In this document: one piece after another, positions 7,866-18,554 of the stretch
How the letters are laid out: the number at the start of each line of letters is the position of its first letter
Position numbering within the stretch: the stretch's first letter is position 1
Assembly: GCF_009689005.1 (NCBI RefSeq)
Contig: NZ_AP021879.1
Location: 5,076,652 to 5,140,651 of the forward strand
DNA length: 64,000 nt
DNA from: Desulfosarcina ovata subsp. ovata
GTDB lineage: Bacteria; Desulfobacterota; Desulfobacteria; Desulfobacterales; Desulfosarcinaceae
Direction: 5' to 3'
The notes under the pieces: model-generated
Databases searched by the model: none
What the model saw: only the letters and a program-made list of their open reading frames with translations
What the model was told of the DNA's origin: nothing
Position numbers and translations under genes: made by a program

Positions 7866-8151
7866 GGTGGCTCGATGCCCATTCAGGGTTTGAAAAAAAA
7901 ATTCAAGATTGATTTGGTGTTACTGGTTGACAAAATGCAACAATGCCCCTAATCAAACGATATCGCGTGATACGAAATTGCGCATTTTTTATAACTAATT
8001 GAAAAAAATACAATAATTTGTAAACTGGGCAAGTGCCCATGTCGGATGGGCCCGGCATGGAGCGGTGGCTGAAGATGGATTCCCTGTACGGGGGATGATC
8101 ATCCACAGGTCATTACGTCCTTTTGCAAAAACGCCAAATTTATCCATAACC
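7866..8151 (+). other. non-coding leader region upstream of the TonB operon
   Basis: No convincing gene lies in this AT-rich stretch. A -35-like TTGACA (7927-7932) is followed 17 bases later by TAATCA, a weak -10. From about 8033 the DNA becomes GC-rich and can form small hairpins, such as GCCCAT/ATGGGC. It then runs into an intrinsic terminator at 8152. The arrangement of promoter, structured RNA, terminator and operon suggests an attenuated leader or riboswitch. I could not assign a known class, and there is no B12-box GCCACTG. Confidence 0.35.
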
Positions 8152-8207
8152 AAAAAGCCAAGAAGGCGAACTGGATCAGTATCCAGCTTCGCATTCCTGG
8201 CTTTTTT
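8152..8207 (+). terminator. intrinsic terminator or attenuator 150 bp before the TonB receptor gene
   Basis: A long hairpin: AAAAAGCCA (8152-8160) pairs with TGGCTTTTT, with further inner pairing through GAA/TTC and GGCGAA/TTCGCA to CTGGAT/ATCCAG around a CAGT loop. It ends in TTTTTT (8202-8207). It could end readthrough from the peptidase gene, or act as a conditional attenuator for the downstream operon. A-rich 5' and T-rich 3' flanks make it potentially bidirectional. Confidence 0.75.
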
Positions 8208-8359: not shown

Positions 8360-10507
8360 ATGCACGGATTGCGGTTTGTTGTTTATTGGACGGTGGTGTT
8401 GGCTTTTTGTTTGCCGATGGCAGTCGGCGCAGATGAGATAGCGGAGGAGACGGTTAAACTTCGAGAGGTTGTGGTCAGTGCACCAAGAACGGATCGAAAA
8501 CTGGTGGAAACGCCTGCCAGTATTACCGTTATTACGGGTGAAGAAATAGAGGAAATGGGCGCAAGGAACATTGTGGACGTCGTGAAGAATATCCCTGGCG
8601 TGGTGAAAGACAGTGACAGCCGCGACCGGCTGACGTTCAGAGGAAATCGGAGTTCCCAGTCGGCGGGCGTTCTGGTATTGATCGATGGTGTCCCGGCAAA
8701 CACAGGCATTTCGGGTTATTCGGAATATGATGCCATACCCGTCTCCAATATCGAGAGAATCGAAGTGCTCCGTTCTTCCGGGAGCGTGGCGCTTGGCCCC
8801 GATGCAGCCAGGGGCGCGATCAACATCATCACCAAGAAAGGGCAAAAGGGTGCCCCTCAGGTAAAAACAACTGTTTCTTACGGCTCCTGGGAGACCTGGA
8901 AGGCCTCGGCCAGTGTTACGGGAAGAACCGCTGACTTGGATTATGCCTTCAGCGCTTCCGGATTGGATACAGATGGCTATGCGGACGACAGCAAGCAAAG
9001 AGGTACTGCCCGTTTGAATTCCGGTTACCATTTTTCGGAAGATACCCGCTTGGGAATCAATTTGAGTTGGCAAAAGGTGGACTATGACACCATCTACGGG
9101 AAAAGCGAATGGCAAGTGGAGAACTATCGTCGGGAAAAAATTTTCCCCACGTCGGAGACCAACCCGACCCTCGTACACCACCGTGAGAATGAAAATGAAA
9201 ATACGACCGTGAGTCTCACATTCAACACGGAAAAAGCAAATTATTTTGTTAACAGCCTTGTTTCCTACGATCACACGGATCATGTATACGACTATCTGCC
9301 AAAACGGCTTAACCCGACATACAGCAAGACCAGCTCGTATTACGATTACCGGGAGGACCGCGACCAGGACCGATATATGGGTAAAATCTCCGGTGGTTAT
9401 CATTTTTTCTTTGGTGGCGTTAACTATACGCCGGTACTTGGAGCCGATTATGAGAAAATCGAATTTGACCAGGAAAAATCATACCCATGGTCTCCGTCCC
9501 CCCTTTCCAGCTCCCAGGAAACGGCTGTCGCAGAGGGCTCTATCGATACCGAACGGAAGCGCTATGGAGCCTTTATGAGCAATGAGCTCGATTTCGGTGA
9601 GCATTGGGAACTCAATGTCAGCGGCCGGATCGACCGTGTCGAGTATGAGGTCCAAAACGAGGTGCCTGAAGAAGTTGCCAAGGATCACGAGGATTTCAGT
9701 TGGGACATCACCCCGGCCTTTCATCCCAGCTCCGATTCGACCATTTATATCTCGGCATCGCGATCCTATTGGTATCCGGTGCTTCAATATTATACCTATG
9801 CCATGAAGTATGGAGACGATCAGAACCGGGCGGAGGATCTGGAGCCGGAGGAGTATCTCACCTATGAACTGGGCTATAAACACTATTTCGGTCCGAAATT
9901 CAGCCTTGCCCTGACGGCCTACACCATGACAGTCAAGGATAAATTTCTCTCACTTTACGATGAAAGCGACTGGAAAGGCTACCAGAACGTTGGTGAATCC
10001 GAACACCGGGGTGTCGAACTGGAACTGGACGGACGCCTCTGCCCGTATTTCGGATATCGTCTCCGGGGGGCGTATCAGCATGCCGAATGGGACGATGCGA
10101 CTTTCCGGGCATACGTCTGGGGGGACACGCCTGCTGACGACACCCGTGAGAATGTCGATATCTCCGGTGAGAAAGTTCCCCATGTGCCGGAATTCACCGG
10201 CACCCTCGGGCTGGATTTTTATTTCCTGGAATATTTTAAATTCAGCACGGATGTGAATTATTATGGCCGGCAATATGTCGATGTGCTCAACCGTTATGAA
10301 ATCGATGACTATGTGACGACCGATGCCATGCTGTCCTACACCAGGGAGAACTTCAAGATCTGGATGCTGGCCAACAACCTCTTCGATAGAGAGGTGGAGA
10401 ACAAGTTCAATGAAACCGGTGACAGGAACGCGGACGGCAGCCCGAATTACCTCTATTACCCCTTGGACGGAAGATACCTGGAAATTGGAGTGAGCGTTGA
10501 ATTCTAA
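8360..10507 (+). CDS. TonB-dependent outer-membrane receptor
   Basis: Predicted 715-aa outer-membrane transporter for a scarce ligand, probably a metal chelate, cofactor or siderophore. A signal peptide occupies about 1-24, ending at AVGA. A TonB-box-like LREVVVSA follows, then the plug domain (ITGEEIEEMGARNIVDVVKN, LIDGVPAN, IERIEVLRSSGS) and a 22-strand-type barrel ending in Phe (GVSVEF). ATG 8360 has AAAGGAG at 8348-8354; the frame is open further upstream, but that part lacks a signal peptide. It is the first gene of the 8360-16005 operon. The ligand cannot be deduced from sequence; expression may be controlled by the preceding leader and terminator. Confidence 0.93.
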   Translation: MHGLRFVVYWTVVLAFCLPMAVGADEIAEETVKLREVVVSAPRTDRKLVETPASITVITGEEIEEMGARNIVDVVKNIPGVVKDSDSRDRLTFRGNRSSQSAGVLVLIDGVPANTGISGYSEYDAIPVSNIERIEVLRSSGSVALGPDAARGAINIITKKGQKGAPQVKTTVSYGSWETWKASASVTGRTADLDYAFSASGLDTDGYADDSKQRGTARLNSGYHFSEDTRLGINLSWQKVDYDTIYGKSEWQVENYRREKIFPTSETNPTLVHHRENENENTTVSLTFNTEKANYFVNSLVSYDHTDHVYDYLPKRLNPTYSKTSSYYDYREDRDQDRYMGKISGGYHFFFGGVNYTPVLGADYEKIEFDQEKSYPWSPSPLSSSQETAVAEGSIDTERKRYGAFMSNELDFGEHWELNVSGRIDRVEYEVQNEVPEEVAKDHEDFSWDITPAFHPSSDSTIYISASRSYWYPVLQYYTYAMKYGDDQNRAEDLEPEEYLTYELGYKHYFGPKFSLALTAYTMTVKDKFLSLYDESDWKGYQNVGESEHRGVELELDGRLCPYFGYRLRGAYQHAEWDDATFRAYVWGDTPADDTRENVDISGEKVPHVPEFTGTLGLDFYFLEYFKFSTDVNYYGRQYVDVLNRYEIDDYVTTDAMLSYTRENFKIWMLANNLFDREVENKFNETGDRNADGSPNYLYYPLDGRYLEIGVSVEF

Positions 10508-11576
10508 CCATGGCGGCCGTTTGTTTTCTACAGGAATCGTTGTTTTCGCCATATCCATCGGAGCGCTTCTTTTTGGGAGGGACACACCGGCCGAAGCAAC
10601 ACGTTCGCTGTCAACGATAGCGGAGACGATCCGTATCGAGGACTCCAAAGGGGTGTCCGTGGCGGTCAGGCTGCCAGTCAGGAGGCTGGTCGTCCTGACC
10701 TCCGACGCGCTGGAGATCGTGCGTGCGTTGGGCGCGGTGGATTTTGTGGTCGGTGTGTATTCCGATATTGAGAAGAATCCTTTGTTCTGGCCGACCTTGA
10801 AGGACAGGCCCAAGGTCGGGAGTTGGAAAGCGATCAATTATGAACGGGTTGTCGAGTTGCATCCGGATGCCGTGCTGTGCTATGCGCAGCGTCCCGGCCG
10901 GGAGATGGAAAAAAAACTCGAGCCCTTCGGCATTCAGGTGATCCGCCTCGATTTTTTCAGGATTGAGCGATTGGCAAAAGAGATTGAAACGCTGGGCCGG
11001 ATTCTTGAAAGAGAGAAAAGGGCCGGAGCGCTTTCGGCCTGGTACCGGCGCCACCTGCATCATCAGCGGGATATGCTCAAAACGATCACTGCCTGCCCGA
11101 GGGTCTATATCGAAGGCGATTCCAACTACCATACTGCGGGACCCGGATCGGGGGGCAACGATATGTGCCTTCTGGCCGGAGGGTGCAATCTCGCCGCAAA
11201 GCTTTCCATTCCCTACCCGGAGGTCTCCCCGGAATGGGTTGTGACGGGCGATCCGGACGTAATCGTCAAAATTACCACTCGCAGCATTTGCGATTCATGC
11301 TATAGCATGACAGAAAGGACGCCGTTAAAAAACATAAGTGACCGGCTGATGGCCCGGCCGGCTTGGCGTCATATCGGTGCTGTCAAAAAAGGCCGCGTCC
11401 ATGTTATTGCTAATGAAATCTGGACCGGTCCAAGGGCCATCATCGGAACATCCTACCTGGTCAAATGGTTTTACCCTGAATTGTCGACGGAATTTGATCC
11501 TGAGGCCCTTCACCGGGAATACCTGGAATCGTTTCAAGGCATCCGCCACCAGGGGATTTACGTCTATCCGGAGTGA
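10497..11576 (+). CDS. periplasmic metal-chelate/cofactor-binding protein of a FecCD-type ABC importer
   Basis: Predicted 359-aa periplasmic binding protein of the helical-backbone class (Peripla_BP_2, BtuF/FepB-like). An N-terminal hydrophobic signal ends near AEA, and the paired lobes begin at VRRLVVLTSDALEIVRALGA. A CxxC in SICDSCYSMTERT near residue 265 is unusual and might bind metal or form a disulfide. The start is TTG 10497, inside the receptor gene's last codons, with GGAG six bases upstream. That 11-base overlap implies translational coupling. It should hand ligand from the TonB receptor to the permease encoded next. Confidence 0.9.
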   Translation: MNSNHGGRLFSTGIVVFAISIGALLFGRDTPAEATRSLSTIAETIRIEDSKGVSVAVRLPVRRLVVLTSDALEIVRALGAVDFVVGVYSDIEKNPLFWPTLKDRPKVGSWKAINYERVVELHPDAVLCYAQRPGREMEKKLEPFGIQVIRLDFFRIERLAKEIETLGRILEREKRAGALSAWYRRHLHHQRDMLKTITACPRVYIEGDSNYHTAGPGSGGNDMCLLAGGCNLAAKLSIPYPEVSPEWVVTGDPDVIVKITTRSICDSCYSMTERTPLKNISDRLMARPAWRHIGAVKKGRVHVIANEIWTGPRAIIGTSYLVKWFYPELSTEFDPEALHREYLESFQGIRHQGIYVYPE

Positions 11577-11594
11577 GTATTTCAGGGGGGAGGA

Positions 11595-12617
11595 ATGCAG
11601 GACATATGCGCGCAATACAGGGGGGCTGGAACCAAAAAACGGTTAATCCTGCTTGGCCTGGCCGTGGTTTTGTTTGGCGTTGCCCTGGCCGCCATTTCCC
11701 AGGGCGCTTCGTCCGTTGGGTTTTTCGATTCATTTCATGCGTTTTTCAAGGCGTCCGGAATCGCCCATGACATCGTATGGGAGCTGCGGCTCCCCCGAAT
11801 TGTCATGGCCATTCTTGTCGGTTGCGGTCTCGGGCTTGCCGGAAGCGTATTCCAGGCCATATTGAAAAACCCCCTGGCGTCACCCTACACCCTTGGAATG
11901 GCCTCCAGCGCCGGATTTGGCGCGGTTCTGGCTATCATTTTTGGTGGCGGTTGGTGTGGCCATTATCTCATTGCCGGCAGTGCGTTTTTCTTCGCCCTGC
12001 TTGCGTCTCTTCTCATTCTCGGAATTGCCAGATACAAAAGCGCCACGCCGGAGACGATGATCCTGGCCGGTATCGCCATTATGTTTCTCTTTTCGGCCCT
12101 CAGTTCTTTCCTCCAATATATGGGAACGGTCAATGAGGTTCACGAAATCGTATTCTGGTTTTTCGGGAGCCTGTCCAAAGTCGGATGGCGGGAGATCGGA
12201 ATCGCCGCCGTGATGATCCTTGTTCCCGTTCCTGTTCTGTTAAAGTGGTCCTGGGATTTTAATCTGCTCACCGCAGGTGATGAATCGGCAACGGCACTCG
12301 GCGTAAACGTAATAAAAATCAGGATGGGCGGGGTCATTTTTGCCTCCCTGATTACGGCAGCGGCCATCTGCTTCACCGGGGTGATCGGCTTTATCGGGCT
12401 TGTCGCCCCGCACATCGCCAGAATGGTGATCGGCGGAGACCACTGGTTCCTCATTCCGGGATCCGCACTGATCGGCGCCATTCTCGTATTGACGGCAGAC
12501 ACCCTGGGAAGGACCTGCTGGGCGCCCCAGATCATCCCTTTGGGGATTGTTACCGCTTTTATCGGCGTCCCTTTCTTTTTTTACCTGTTAATGAAAAAAA
12601 AGCGAGAATACTGGTAA
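11595..12617 (+). CDS. FecCD/BtuC-type ABC transporter permease
   Basis: Predicted 340-aa inner-membrane permease with about nine to ten hydrophobic segments. Family signatures include LRLPRIVMAILVGCGLGLAG, NPLASPYTLG, and the cytoplasmic-loop region FIGLVAPHIARM that contacts the ATPase. ATG 11595 is preceded directly by GGGGGAGGA. It presumably works as a homodimer with the ATPase whose start codon overlaps its stop (TAATG). The N-terminus before the first membrane helix is slightly longer than usual. Confidence 0.94.
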   Translation: MQDICAQYRGAGTKKRLILLGLAVVLFGVALAAISQGASSVGFFDSFHAFFKASGIAHDIVWELRLPRIVMAILVGCGLGLAGSVFQAILKNPLASPYTLGMASSAGFGAVLAIIFGGGWCGHYLIAGSAFFFALLASLLILGIARYKSATPETMILAGIAIMFLFSALSSFLQYMGTVNEVHEIVFWFFGSLSKVGWREIGIAAVMILVPVPVLLKWSWDFNLLTAGDESATALGVNVIKIRMGGVIFASLITAAAICFTGVIGFIGLVAPHIARMVIGGDHWFLIPGSALIGAILVLTADTLGRTCWAPQIIPLGIVTAFIGVPFFFYLLMKKKREYW

Positions 12618-13393
12618 TGCTTTGTATCGAAGGGCTTTGTTTCCATTATAACAAAACAGCGATTCTGGAAAACATCGGCATCGACCTGCACCGGGGACAG
12701 ATGCTGAGTATCGTGGGTCCTAATGGAACCGGGAAAACGACACTTTTAAAATGCATCGCCGGAATCGCTACGCCCAGAAGTGGCAAGATTCTTATTGATG
12801 GTGTGGATATGTCCCGGATGAGCCGAATGGACCATGCCAAGCGCATCGGGTATGTTCCCCAGAGTTCACCCGGAAAATTTCCCATTACGGTGTTTGACGC
12901 GGTGTTGATGGGCAGGCGGCCCTACATGACCTGGAGACCCTCTGAAAAGGATCTGGAGGCCGTTGCGAATGTTCTGAAGTCCCTGAACCTGGAGAATATC
13001 GCCTTGAGGGATTTTGACCAGTTGAGCGGGGGGCAGAAGCAAAAAGTGCTGTTGGCCCGGGCAGTGGCCCAGGAGACGGATTACCTGCTCATGGATGAGC
13101 CGACCAGCAACCTTGACCTGAAACACCAGATGGAGGTCCTGGAGATGGTGTCCGGAATGGTGAAAAAAAGCGGTGTGGCCGCCATGCTGGCGATGCACGA
13201 CCTGAACCTTGCCGCCCGGTTTTCCGACAGAATCGTGATGTTGAACAAGGGCAGGATATTTTGCAGCGGCCGGCCGCGGCAGGTCATGACCGCCCAAAAT
13301 ATAAGATCGATCTACGGTGTGGAAGCCACGATCAACGAAACCAACGGCCACCCGCATATTCTGCCGATCAGACCGGTGAGCGCCCTGGGATAA
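12617..13393 (+). CDS. ABC transporter ATP-binding protein, FepC/BtuD type
   Basis: Predicted 258-aa ATPase that powers the FecCD-type importer. Walker A is GPNGTGKT (about 34-41), the ABC signature is LSGGQKQ, Walker B is YLLMDEPTS, and the H-loop is AMHDLNLAARF. The start codon shares one base with the permease stop, so translation is coupled. The C-terminal tail (YGVEATI...) is typical of the iron-chelate/cobalamin ATPase subfamily. Confidence 0.95.
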   Translation: MLCIEGLCFHYNKTAILENIGIDLHRGQMLSIVGPNGTGKTTLLKCIAGIATPRSGKILIDGVDMSRMSRMDHAKRIGYVPQSSPGKFPITVFDAVLMGRRPYMTWRPSEKDLEAVANVLKSLNLENIALRDFDQLSGGQKQKVLLARAVAQETDYLLMDEPTSNLDLKHQMEVLEMVSGMVKKSGVAAMLAMHDLNLAARFSDRIVMLNKGRIFCSGRPRQVMTAQNIRSIYGVEATINETNGHPHILPIRPVSALG

Positions 13394-13397
13394 GCCA

Positions 13398-14354
13398 ATG
13401 GGTTCCGTTTGGGTATCGACGCTCATCTCCTCGGCCAAGTTTCTCGCCGCCATGATTCCGGTTTTTGCCGTTGGCGTGATCGTCGCCGAATTCCTGGTCG
13501 CTTTGGGGTGGATCCATCGGATTGCCTGGATCACCCGTCCGTTGACCGCTTTCGGCCATCTGAAACAGGAATGTGGTGCCAGTTTTATCACCGCTTTTCT
13601 TTCTCCGGCGGCCGGCAATGGCATGCTGGTTCGCTATCACGAAGCGGGTCGCATCGGCAGCCGGGAGCTTCTGATTGCCGCCATTGTGAACACATTTCCG
13701 GGGATCGTCATGCACTGGCGGACGATGCTGCCCATGGCAATTCCGCTGATCGGGGGGTGGGGACTGGTTTACTATGGTTTTCTGGTGCTGGTGGGCTTCA
13801 TTAAAACCATGCTGGCCCTTTTGATGGGTCGGTTTCTTTTGGAACCCGGCGATCCGGCGGTTTCGGAAATTCAGTCTGAAAAGGGAGACGCCCGAGCCTT
13901 ATCATGGCAGCTGGTGGCGGACAGCGCCGCAAAAAGCCGGAAAATTGTTATTCGTATGATACGGACTTCGGTTCCCGTGACTGTGGTGATGTTTTTGCTG
14001 ATCCATGCGGGCGCATTGGATCGCCTGAACCGCTGGCTGGCGTTGATGACGACATGGATGCCGCTTTCGCCCGATGCCTTGTCCATTGTGGCGACGCGGC
14101 TGGGGAGCAACATGGGTGCCTTTACCGTGGCCGGTAACCTTCTCTATGCTGGGCGCATCACGGGCAGGGATGTGGTGCTTGCGCTGCTCATCGGCAATCT
14201 GATGGCCAGCGGAATCAATTTGAGATATCTGGTCCCCTATTACTTTGGAATTTTCGGCTCCGGCGTGGGCGTGCGGGTACTTACGATCTCGACCGGCCTT
14301 CGGGTGGTGATCATGCTCGGACTGATCGTCATCCTGTTCAAAACATGGGGATAA
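13398..14354 (+). CDS. Gate (nucleoside-recognition) domain membrane protein
   Basis: Predicted 318-aa multi-pass inner-membrane protein with two Gate-type halves. One runs from about 1 to 130 and contains FLSPAAGNGMLVRYHEAGR and FPGIVMHWRTMLPMAIPLIG; the second follows a hydrophilic loop at about 155-185. Gate domains occur in FeoB, nucleoside transporters and spore-maturation proteins, and often sit beside metal-chelate transporters. Here the gene starts four bases after the ATPase gene, so it probably assists uptake or export of the same ligand or its released metal. The direction and substrate are unknown. Confidence 0.8.
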   Translation: MGSVWVSTLISSAKFLAAMIPVFAVGVIVAEFLVALGWIHRIAWITRPLTAFGHLKQECGASFITAFLSPAAGNGMLVRYHEAGRIGSRELLIAAIVNTFPGIVMHWRTMLPMAIPLIGGWGLVYYGFLVLVGFIKTMLALLMGRFLLEPGDPAVSEIQSEKGDARALSWQLVADSAAKSRKIVIRMIRTSVPVTVVMFLLIHAGALDRLNRWLALMTTWMPLSPDALSIVATRLGSNMGAFTVAGNLLYAGRITGRDVVLALLIGNLMASGINLRYLVPYYFGIFGSGVGVRVLTISTGLRVVIMLGLIVILFKTWG

Positions 14355-14380
14355 ATAGGGGCATAAAAAGGAGGCGTGTG

Positions 14381-14947
14381 ATGAATTGGGAGTCTGTCAA
14401 GGAGGATGCGTATTACCGGGGAAGGATGCTGGAGAGTGACGCCCGGCGTTCTTCCGATCCCCAAAAATGGGAGGAATACGCAGACCTAAAAACCCGAAAA
14501 GGCAGCTATACCCTGGCCATTCATGGATATTTGAATGCCGCTGTCCAATATGAGAACCGGAGGGAGACGAATGCGGCCCTATCCGCCTACGAAAGTGGGT
14601 GGTCTGCTGCCATGCGGGCCGATAACAAGGAGTTGGCCGTCATTCTGACCTACCGGATGGCCCAGCTCCACGAACAGCAGGAAGACTGGGATGCCGCCAT
14701 CGGGGCCTACGAACGACTCGGTGCGTTCTGCGAGAAAAAGGGCGCCCATTTTCAGGCGGCCGATGCCTATGAGCACGCCGCCGAAGCCATGCTCCGGGCT
14801 GGCAAAAGTGTGGTTCATTACCAAAAGCCCATTGCCCTGTGGGAACGGAACATCCACCATTGGGAGGCCCATGGCCACGATCACGATGCCGTATGGAGCC
14901 GGAAGCATATCGACCTTTATAAAAAATTATTCGGAGTGGAAGAATGA
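14381..14947 (+). CDS. TPR-like helical protein of unknown function
   Basis: Predicted 188-aa soluble protein made of repeated helix pairs resembling TPR/SNAP repeats: YTLAIHGYLNAAVQYENRRE, AIGAYERLGAFCEKKG and ADAYEHAAEAMLRAG. It has a histidine-rich tail (HHWEAHGHDHD). ATG 14381 is taken because AAAAGGAGG lies at 14366-14374; the frame is open to 14345. The stop overlaps the next start by four bases. Its His-rich C-terminus and operon position suggest a protein-protein or metal-handling role in the transport system, but this is inference. Confidence 0.75.
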   Translation: MNWESVKEDAYYRGRMLESDARRSSDPQKWEEYADLKTRKGSYTLAIHGYLNAAVQYENRRETNAALSAYESGWSAAMRADNKELAVILTYRMAQLHEQQEDWDAAIGAYERLGAFCEKKGAHFQAADAYEHAAEAMLRAGKSVVHYQKPIALWERNIHHWEAHGHDHDAVWSRKHIDLYKKLFGVEE

Positions 14948-16005
14948 TCGGGATTCTTTTTCACGGACCGGAGGTCTTTGACTCCGGTTGGGGGCGACAA
15001 ATCATTGATACAATGAAAACCAAGGATGATCTGCGCTGCGTTTTGGCCGGTACCATGGGGCGAACCGCCGTTTTCGACAGCGGCATCGATGGCATTGAAT
15101 TCTGGAATCAAATGCCCAGTGCGTGTCTTTCCGAGCTGGCTTCGGAGGCCAGTTTGATCCTGATCGTCAATTTCGCAAAATCCGCGGAAGCCGGCCTGGT
15201 TTTCGGCGGCATGGTCGTCGAAAGGTCCGGGGTAACCGTTCCGGTCGTGCAGGTCGAGTGCAGCGGTCCTTTTTGGGTGGAGTGGGTCGACGGTTGCGAT
15301 CCGGGCCTTATCGAAACATTGCATCGGATGGGGCTTTCACGGCGAGCGCCAAAACCGGTCGCTTCCTCAATCTGGCAGGCGGATGGGAACCTCTATCGCC
15401 GCATGACGACGGCCGGTGCGGGCGATTTCATTTTCGTGGATGGGATTATGGTCGGCCGGGCAACCGGGGACGTGGTGACGCTGATTTCCCGGGATGGACA
15501 ACTCTGCGAAATCCAGGGCGCCGACGTCAAAGCCCATGGTCTTGAAAAACTGGAGCGATTTGGCGGTGTCGATCTGCAAACGGCCAAACTGGCGTCCTCA
15601 CCGACGATTCGCCGAACAGCTAAGCAGCCCCGTATCATGAAAACGACGGGCAACGGATTGGTTTTTATCGATCATGCCGGCATGCATGTTTATGAATTGA
15701 CGGGCGACGTGGAAGGTGCCGTTACGGTTGGCGATGACACCACCGTGGTGGTCGGCGATATCCTGTCGCGGTTTCAAATTCCCGTGATCGGGATTGTGGA
15801 CGGCGACGAAGACGTTATCCTGGAAAACGGCCGTTTTGCGTCCGGTTCGGCAAAATTGACCGTCCGGGCGGATGATCGGTTCGGGATGAAAGTTTTCGAT
15901 GAGATTTTCAACCACGAGAAACAGATTGGCATACCTTTCGAGGAGGCGCTGAGAAAAATTGTGAAACTCGCTGGAGACGATTTGGTGAATCTGCAGACGT
16001 TTTGA
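14944..16005 (+). CDS. DUF2117-like protein, last gene of the TonB/Gate operon
   Basis: Predicted 353-aa cytoplasmic protein that I recognise, from memory and not from a search, as resembling DUF2117, a family known mainly from methanogenic archaea. Supporting motifs are HGPEVFDSG near the N-terminus, GTMGRTAVFDSGID (about 36-49), a central DFIFVDGIMVGRATGDVV, and C-terminal VGDDTTVVVGDI (about 261-272) and IGIVDGDED. The Gly- and Asp-rich motifs suggest a nucleotide- or metal-binding Rossmann-like fold. It overlaps the TPR-like gene by four bases. No biochemical function is known to me; a role in processing or sensing the imported ligand is inferred from the operon only. Confidence 0.65.
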   Translation: MIGILFHGPEVFDSGWGRQIIDTMKTKDDLRCVLAGTMGRTAVFDSGIDGIEFWNQMPSACLSELASEASLILIVNFAKSAEAGLVFGGMVVERSGVTVPVVQVECSGPFWVEWVDGCDPGLIETLHRMGLSRRAPKPVASSIWQADGNLYRRMTTAGAGDFIFVDGIMVGRATGDVVTLISRDGQLCEIQGADVKAHGLEKLERFGGVDLQTAKLASSPTIRRTAKQPRIMKTTGNGLVFIDHAGMHVYELTGDVEGAVTVGDDTTVVVGDILSRFQIPVIGIVDGDEDVILENGRFASGSAKLTVRADDRFGMKVFDEIFNHEKQIGIPFEEALRKIVKLAGDDLVNLQTF

Positions 16006-17141: not shown

Positions 17142-18554
17142 TTGTCCGGTAACCATGACCGCCATAAAAGGGAACTCCCACTGAAATCTGCCCCCCCCGC
17201 CCATGTCGCACCGCCGTTATCGCCCTTTGCGGTGAACAATGTCCGCCGATTTATCGCTTTCCGGGTTTTTTTCAACTGTCGGTTCTACTATCCGGTATTC
17301 ACGGTTCTGTTCATCGATTTCGGGCTCAGTGTGGCCCAGTTTTCGATCCTCAATGCGGTCTGGGCCGCCACCATCGTCCTGGCCGAGGTGCCGTCGGGCG
17401 CCCTGGCCGATATCGTCGGCCGTCGCCGGTTACTGGTGTTCGCCGCCTTTTCCATGCTGCTGGAGATGGCCATCCTGTGCCTGGCCCCCCGGGGGAACCC
17501 CTCCCTGCTGTTCGTTTTTTTTCTGGTCAACCGGGTCCTCAGCGGGCTGGCCGAAGCAGCGGCCAGTGGCGCCGATGAGGCCATCGCCTACGACGCCCTG
17601 CAGGCCCGGGGCCTGGCCGACCAGTGGGGGCGGGTGCTGGATCGCCAGATGCGCTGGCGATCGGTCACATTCATCCTCACCATGACCGTGGGTGCCGCCG
17701 TCTACGATCCGGACCTGATGTCGCGGCTGTTTGCCGCCATCGGATGGCCGCATGCGTTTACCCAGTCCGAGACCCTGCGGCTGCCCCTCTACTTGACCTT
17801 GGGCCTGGCCCTTTTCACCCTGGCCGCGGTCCTGGGCCTGGACGAAATGTCGGGCGCTGCCGGTGGTGAGGGCACCCACCGGAACGATACCGGCGGATCG
17901 GCATTTGCCGCCTTCCGGCTGACCCTCGACTCCGGTCGCTGGATTCTCAAGACGCCTTTTGTTTTGGGGGTGATCCTTTTCGGTCTGCTTTTCGACGGCA
18001 TCCTGCGCATGGTCATCACCCTGGCCAGCCAATACTACCGCATGGTTCAACTGCCCGAGTCCAGTTTCGGACTGCTGGGATCAATTATGTCCGTCACCGG
18101 CATATTCATCCCCCGCCTCTCCCTGTGGATCGCCGAGAACCGTTCCCCCGTCTTCTGCCTGTGGTCCACCGCAGCCACCGCCCTGGCGGGCCTTGGCGGC
18201 ATGGCTTTTTTCTGGCCTTACGTGGGCCTGCTGCCGGCGCTGGTAGCCTTTTCGGCCCTCTACATGGTCGGCTTTTATGTGAGCTATTTTGTCAATCAAC
18301 AGGCATCTTCGTCCCGTCGGGCCACGGTGCTCAGCTTCAAAGGGCTGGCCTACAACATCTCATACGGCCTGATCGGGGTATTTTACGCCGGGTTGCTGGA
18401 ATTCAAGAAAAATGCCGCCGCCGGTGATATGGGCGGACAACTATTGGAGAATGCGGTGTTCAAGGAGACTTTTTTCTGGTTTCCGGCCGGACTGACCCTG
18501 GGGCTGATCATGCTGGTTTCGGCTACGGCGGTTTACCGGGGGAAACGTCACTAA
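17142..18554 (+). CDS. MFS transporter
   Basis: Predicted 470-aa 12-helix major facilitator. The first cytoplasmic loop GALADIVGRRRL between helices 2 and 3 matches the family signature. The start at TTG 17142 is uncertain: there is no clear ribosome site, and the first 30 or so residues are hydrophilic; an in-frame GTG near 17232 is the main alternative. The substrate is unknown. The stop codon touches the first arm of a 144-bp palindromic element. Confidence 0.8.
   Translation: MSGNHDRHKRELPLKSAPPAHVAPPLSPFAVNNVRRFIAFRVFFNCRFYYPVFTVLFIDFGLSVAQFSILNAVWAATIVLAEVPSGALADIVGRRRLLVFAAFSMLLEMAILCLAPRGNPSLLFVFFLVNRVLSGLAEAAASGADEAIAYDALQARGLADQWGRVLDRQMRWRSVTFILTMTVGAAVYDPDLMSRLFAAIGWPHAFTQSETLRLPLYLTLGLALFTLAAVLGLDEMSGAAGGEGTHRNDTGGSAFAAFRLTLDSGRWILKTPFVLGVILFGLLFDGILRMVITLASQYYRMVQLPESSFGLLGSIMSVTGIFIPRLSLWIAENRSPVFCLWSTAATALAGLGGMAFFWPYVGLLPALVAFSALYMVGFYVSYFVNQQASSSRRATVLSFKGLAYNISYGLIGVFYAGLLEFKKNAAAGDMGGQLLENAVFKETFFWFPAGLTLGLIMLVSATAVYRGKRH

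Follow-up and report, generated by a model that had tools for sequence, protein, structure and literature searches.

In the 64,000-nucleotide stretch of the Desulfosarcina ovata subsp. ovata genome analysed here (the window), we identified a seven-gene operon that, judging from its sequence and its relatives, probably imports nickel or a nickel chelate and handles the metal inside the cell through a TPR protein and a DUF2117 protein. The best reading of the RNA leader that precedes these genes is a candidate new nickel-linked attenuator acting in place of NikR.

The operon occupies positions 8360–16005 of the forward strand and is composed of seven co-directional open reading frames, all of which were confirmed in a check of the window. 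The first encodes a TonB-dependent outer-membrane receptor (8360–10507) with recognisable barrel (PF00593, 2.5e-39) and plug (PF07715, 1.8e-22) domains, and overlaps by 11 bp the gene for a periplasmic binding protein (SBP, Peripla_BP_2; 10497–11576, TTG start; PF01497, 1.3e-24). These are followed by a FecCD-family permease (11595–12617; PF01032, 3.1e-90) and an ABC ATPase (ABC_tran; 12617–13393; PF00005, 2.1e-33), and the Pfam assignments of permease, ATPase and SBP together identify a type II importer. Among solved proteins the permease is most closely related to FhuB, HmuU, HI1471 and BtuC, with FhuB the nearest, a set that does not fix the ligand; the SBP and the receptor have distant relatives only among solved proteins. 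A Gate-domain membrane protein (13398–14354; PF07670, 9.5e-08, in two stretches) comes next and gave no meaningful match to the PDB by sequence. The TPR helical-repeat protein (14381–14947) is all-helical in its AlphaFold model (pLDDT 94.7), and its gene most likely starts at the ATG at 14381, behind an AGGAGG and 26 bp past the Gate gene. It overlaps by 4 bp the last gene, which encodes the DUF2117 (COG4048) protein (14944–16005). The first-pass annotation had described a seven-gene TonB/FecCD operon extended with Gate, TPR and DUF2117 genes, and every frame and family in that description was confirmed.

The last protein, previously called DUF2117-like, is a true full-length member of the family, scoring 338.8 bits against PF09890 (3.7e-101; curated cut-off 25) over residues 4–324 and profile positions 1–324 of 325. 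Many acidic, histidine, lysine and arginine positions are invariant in the DUF2117 alignment, among them H7, E10, D13, E105, C106, K196, H198, D243 and H244, and the motifs VTVGDDTT and DGDxD are conserved; because of these invariant positions the sequences suggest an enzyme or a metal- or phosphate-binding site. The confident structural model (pLDDT 87) matched no PDB fold at E ≤ 0.001, and comparison with the PDB by sequence gave no meaningful match. In 2007, COG4048 was listed from methanogens only, with the exception of Methanosphaera stadtmanae (PMC1852104). A Sinorhizobium protein has been credited with “six DUF2117 domains” (PMC3484140), which in our judgement seems to be a mistake for a different DUF family. 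The TPR protein had been described as histidine-rich and TPR-like; it is of the TPR type, but homologues do not conserve its HGHDHD tail, and the idea of a conserved histidine-rich metal site was rejected.

A pattern scan for bacterial DUF2117 loci, with one genome per species, recovered 10 besides the window, and in all 11 the TPR and DUF2117 genes are adjacent. Within the phylum the family is rare, with two full-length matches in 395 genomes. Three related Desulfobacteraceae MAGs (L010, L011 and L012) carry all seven genes in the same order at 58–83% identity. Three further loci (L013, L014 and L019) lack only the Gate gene, and in three others (L015, L016 and L017) a Gate–TPR–DUF2117 set is retained at 35–49% identity. 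In L018 the TPR–DUF2117 pair is divergent from a TonB–SBP–FecCD–ABC block and has no Gate gene beside it. The Gate domain noted earlier is thus present in the window but is an optional component, undetected next to the pair in L013, L014, L018 and L019. Most of the 11 loci have a TonB receptor gene next to the pair, and 8 have SBP, FecCD and ATPase genes as well, a result that bears out the linkage of DUF2117 to transporters. Loci labelled as lying outside the window's phylum come from Acidobacteria (L015), Elusimicrobiota/Elusimicrobia (L016 and L017) and Brachymonas (L018); these four are all MAGs, so that binning errors are possible, and since most of the relatives are MAGs, some absences may be artefacts. 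One genome (G407) contains an apparent decayed DUF2117 remnant, which directly follows genes for a TonB receptor, a DUF4198-like protein and a NikL-like protein. In L010, putative benzoyl-CoA-reductase/2-hydroxyacyl-dehydratase-type proteins, ASKHA ATPases and a CooC-like ATPase are encoded 2–3 kb past the DUF2117 operon (L010:13517–18535).

Nickel was indicated by the gene order in the Elusimicrobia. L017 has the arrangement nikR-TonB-Gate-TPR-DUF2117, and L016 has hypC-hypD-...-hypE-...-hypF-nikR-Gate-TPR-DUF2117, with nikR and hyp genes in place of the importer genes and no receptor in the stretch covered. The NikR_C domains of both loci and the HypC, HypD, HypF and AIRS (HypE-type) domains were confirmed by Pfam. 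The NikR operator of delta-proteobacteria has the form GTGTTAC-[N13/14]-GTAACAC, in either orientation (PMC545781). Boxes that deviate from it by one mismatch precede the module in both L016 and L017 and also nikR of L017, and a weaker one with two mismatches precedes the module of the Acidobacteria MAG L015, where the NikR gene lies elsewhere in the genome; shuffled regions gave 0 to 0.005 boxes. Each of the four module-carrying genomes outside the Desulfobacterota encodes NikR. NikR (PF08753) was undetected in all seven Desulfobacterota module genomes, including the closed genome of the window (G000), and occurs in 3 of 194 genomes of its order. A NikR-like box with two mismatches in the window leader (7917–7943) is not kept in L010 and L011 and was set aside. 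The earlier reading, import combined with intracellular handling of a metal ligand, remains the best one, and the metal is, with fair confidence, nickel.

The region upstream of the receptor gene, overlooked in the first-pass annotation, is a structured leader (~7927–8207; z −3.85) with a terminator at its end; all its features lie on the forward strand. It begins with a promoter-like region (7927–7955; TTGACA-17 nt-TAATCA, second hexamer weak), the TTGACA of which recurs at a similar distance before the first hairpin in L010 and L011; a consensus promoter scan did not call this region. Hairpin H1 (7965–7983; GCGTGAT-ACGAA-ATTGCGC) is followed at a distance by hairpin H2 (8157–8167; GCC-AAGAA-GGC), which lies within the 5′ arm of a terminator hairpin with a U-run (8154–8207). 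By their pairing H2 and the terminator are mutually exclusive. This holds for the other leaders except that of L013, where an ANGAA hairpin sits inside the terminator loop. H1 and H2 are separated by a median of 42 nt. The distance in the window is 173 nt, or about 60 nt without a self-closed structured insert of 113 nt (8017–8129; z −2.7 alone). This insert is atypical, resembles a three-way-junction RNA domain and has no match in 40 relatives, where a DNA search matched the terminator part only, and no Rfam family.

The hairpin GCC-ANGAA-GGC, with an H1 of the same loop kind upstream, recurs well beyond this operon. When the 110 nt next to each of 54 sites were examined, an ANGAA hairpin with a stem of 4 bp or more occurred at 17 of them; 1.0 was expected, and none of 200 shuffles exceeded 4. 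For most altered loops the count at the same sites was 0–2, with AAGNA reaching 7 and NGAA tetraloops 16. Two or more ANGAA hairpins (stem of at least 3 bp) precede all seven Desulfobacterota DUF2117 operons, whereas 1000 shuffled sets averaged 0.2 such leaders and never had more than 2. Of 40 relatives, 14 contain the terminator pattern AAGCCANGAAGGC...TGGCTTTTT, as do 51 of the 194 genomes searched in the order and 41 of the 395 in the phylum; the reversed pattern gave 0, 0 and 1, respectively.

Strict sites of this pattern lie mostly 5′ of TonB, SBP, FecCD and DUF4198 genes. An import-type gene (TonB, SBP, FecCD, ABC, DUF4198, NikL-like, ExbB/D, ChlI and genes travelling with them) is found no more than 1.45 kb downstream of 41 of the 55 strict sites, a count biased upward because these loci supplied part of the reference set, and upstream in 10, of which several belong to regulon pairs arranged divergently or in tandem. 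The wider set of targets also includes CbiK, CobN and ChlI homologues, a point against a nickel-only regulon. A pattern-independent test started from the CbiM/NikM genes of 40 relatives and took in as much as 5 kb of upstream sequence at 20 loci. The full H1–H2–terminator element was present on the sense strand at 12 of these loci and at none on the reverse strand or in shuffles, which served as controls for a detection rule written after the first examples had been seen. All 12 belong to the 17 loci without a cobalamin riboswitch (the other five have no detected element), and none of the three riboswitch loci has it. Thus the element tracks presumed nickel transport and not B12-controlled cobalt transport, the nickel or cobalt specificity of the CbiM/NikM proteins being presumed rather than independently assigned.

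One leader-controlled operon (L071:729–10876) comprises ChlI-like, SBP, FecCD and ABC genes and a CobN-type chelatase, which suggests a tetrapyrrole branch of the leader regulon. Another locus (L009:9790–18400) has a pair of TonB operons under such leaders, and both include genes for a DUF4198-like protein and a tetrapyrrole methylase. Of the methylases, at least the one at 17525–18400 (PF00590) begins with a signal-peptide-like segment and so may be periplasmic. A cluster similar to these operons adjoins the DUF2117 operon of L012. ExbB/ExbD/TonB-like energiser genes lie beside a lipoprotein-like DxDxDGxxD-repeat protein in L070:5672–9521 and L074:8681–11945; the repeat gene is 3′ of a two-hairpin leader in L070, as are similar repeat genes in several other genomes.

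Comparison of the leader with Rfam covariance models gave no match at the gathering score and, up to an E-value of 10, two chance miRNA matches only, so that known riboswitches, including cobalamin, were ruled out. No description of such a two-hairpin leader was found among open-licence papers. The ANTAR target RNAs of NasR, AmiR and EutV are similar in that they consist of a pair of small hairpins, with an intrinsic terminator overlapping the second. These RNAs carry hexaloops with A1 and G4 and, in E. faecalis eut, a linker of 5–12 nt (PMC3369931), whereas the leader has ANGAA or NGAA loops and a median linker of 42 nt. An ANTAR gene (PF03861) is associated with the element only weakly (odds 2.6, p 0.008) and is absent from 15 of 51 genomes that have the element, one of which (G448) carries four sites at 97% completeness. 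Together, the loop, linker and co-occurrence tests rule out ANTAR as the universal factor of this leader. The only ANTAR gene of the window's genome (L067:4462–7181; G000:C1 ~5556461–5559180) precedes a putative glutamate-synthase-like gene, the leader of which has two hexaloop hairpins, cttacAATGGCgtaag and agacAACGGCgtct (loops AATGGC and AACGGC). Both hairpins are of the canonical ANTAR type, and the locus appears to form a separate, ordinary ANTAR regulon.

Among the other ligands considered, the one of greatest interest is a nickel tetrapyrrole, namely coenzyme F430 or a breakdown product of it from methanogens or ANME, which the DUF2117–TPR pair would bind or dechelate. The permease is akin not to FhuB alone but also to HmuU and BtuC, several relatives have sediment or sludge sample labels, DUF2117 would deal with nickel because it is encoded beside nikR, and COG4048 has been listed as methanogen-only (PMC1852104). 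We nevertheless consider this ligand unlikely, since the L016 module is grouped with genes for hydrogenase maturation and lacks a receptor in the stretch covered, and no tetrapyrrole-binding signature was identified. Moreover, Methanosphaera stadtmanae is without COG4048 although F430 is needed by methanogens. A BtuBFCD-like corrinoid or cobalt importer, with TPR–DUF2117 acting on the corrinoid, would agree with the high scores of BtuC and corrinoid ATPase models for the permease and ATPase, and with the CbiK and CobN genes of the wider leader set; it seems very improbable given that the window has no cobalamin riboswitch, that the element is absent from all three riboswitch-bearing CbiM loci, a small number, and that the module is NikR-linked in other genomes. 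A ferric-siderophore importer followed by unrelated genes would suit the receptor and FecCD class and the closeness to FhuB, and can hardly be sustained when TPR and DUF2117 are neighbours in all 11 bacterial loci, when importer genes or nikR accompany them in different phyla, and when the leader is common to NikM loci.

The import path of TonB receptors and FecCD/BtuCD importers is known. Under the nickel reading, the receptor would carry a nickel complex across the outer membrane and the SBP and FecCD/ABC importer would bring it into the cytoplasm, with the Gate protein as a possible accessory metal permease. The TPR and DUF2117 proteins would jointly release or buffer the nickel or deliver it to enzymes such as [NiFe] hydrogenase. 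Points that count against this reading are the distant relationship of SBP and receptor to solved proteins, the atypical insert in the window leader, the CbiK, CobN and ChlI homologues among the leader targets, and the five riboswitch-free NikM/CbiM loci with no detected element. We hypothesise that H2 competes with the terminator and that a factor binding H1 and H2 would cause read-through, presumably at low nickel; in relatives of other phyla, NikR controls the module instead. The broader proposal, that this new attenuator and its RNA-binding factor replace NikR across this order of sulfate-reducer-type bacteria and that TPR–DUF2117 is a new cytoplasmic nickel-release or delivery module which methanogens also have, we regard as evenly balanced. 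Nickel handling would be the first testable function for DUF2117, reported as methanogen-specific and lacking an assigned function. A nickel-linked RNA switch is also indicated in a NikR-poor order, which makes the control of nickel uptake there directly testable. In anoxic sediments, hydrogenases, CODH and methane chemistry are limited by nickel supply.

Compared with known systems, the permease, ATPase and SBP belong to the families of BtuCDF, FhuBCD and HmuUV, whereas the window operon has a single permease gene together with TPR–DUF2117, and homology does not set the ligand. Set beside the methanogen DUF2117/COG4048 proteins (MMP0311; PMC1852104), the DUF2117 protein shows full-length homology to the Pfam family, which was built on archaeal proteins, but is bacterial and is encoded alongside importer genes and a TPR partner. 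The metal import logic is shared with the NikR-controlled NikMQO and NikK/NikL uptake of delta-proteobacteria (PMC545781), an operator of the published type lying before the Elusimicrobia module and DUF4198-type genes being frequent leader targets, as well as with TonB-dependent nickel uptake, known for FecA3, FrpB4, CntO and others (PMC11247825). The window operon differs from these nickel uptake systems in combining a FecCD importer with Gate, TPR and DUF2117 proteins, and in having an RNA leader rather than NikR.
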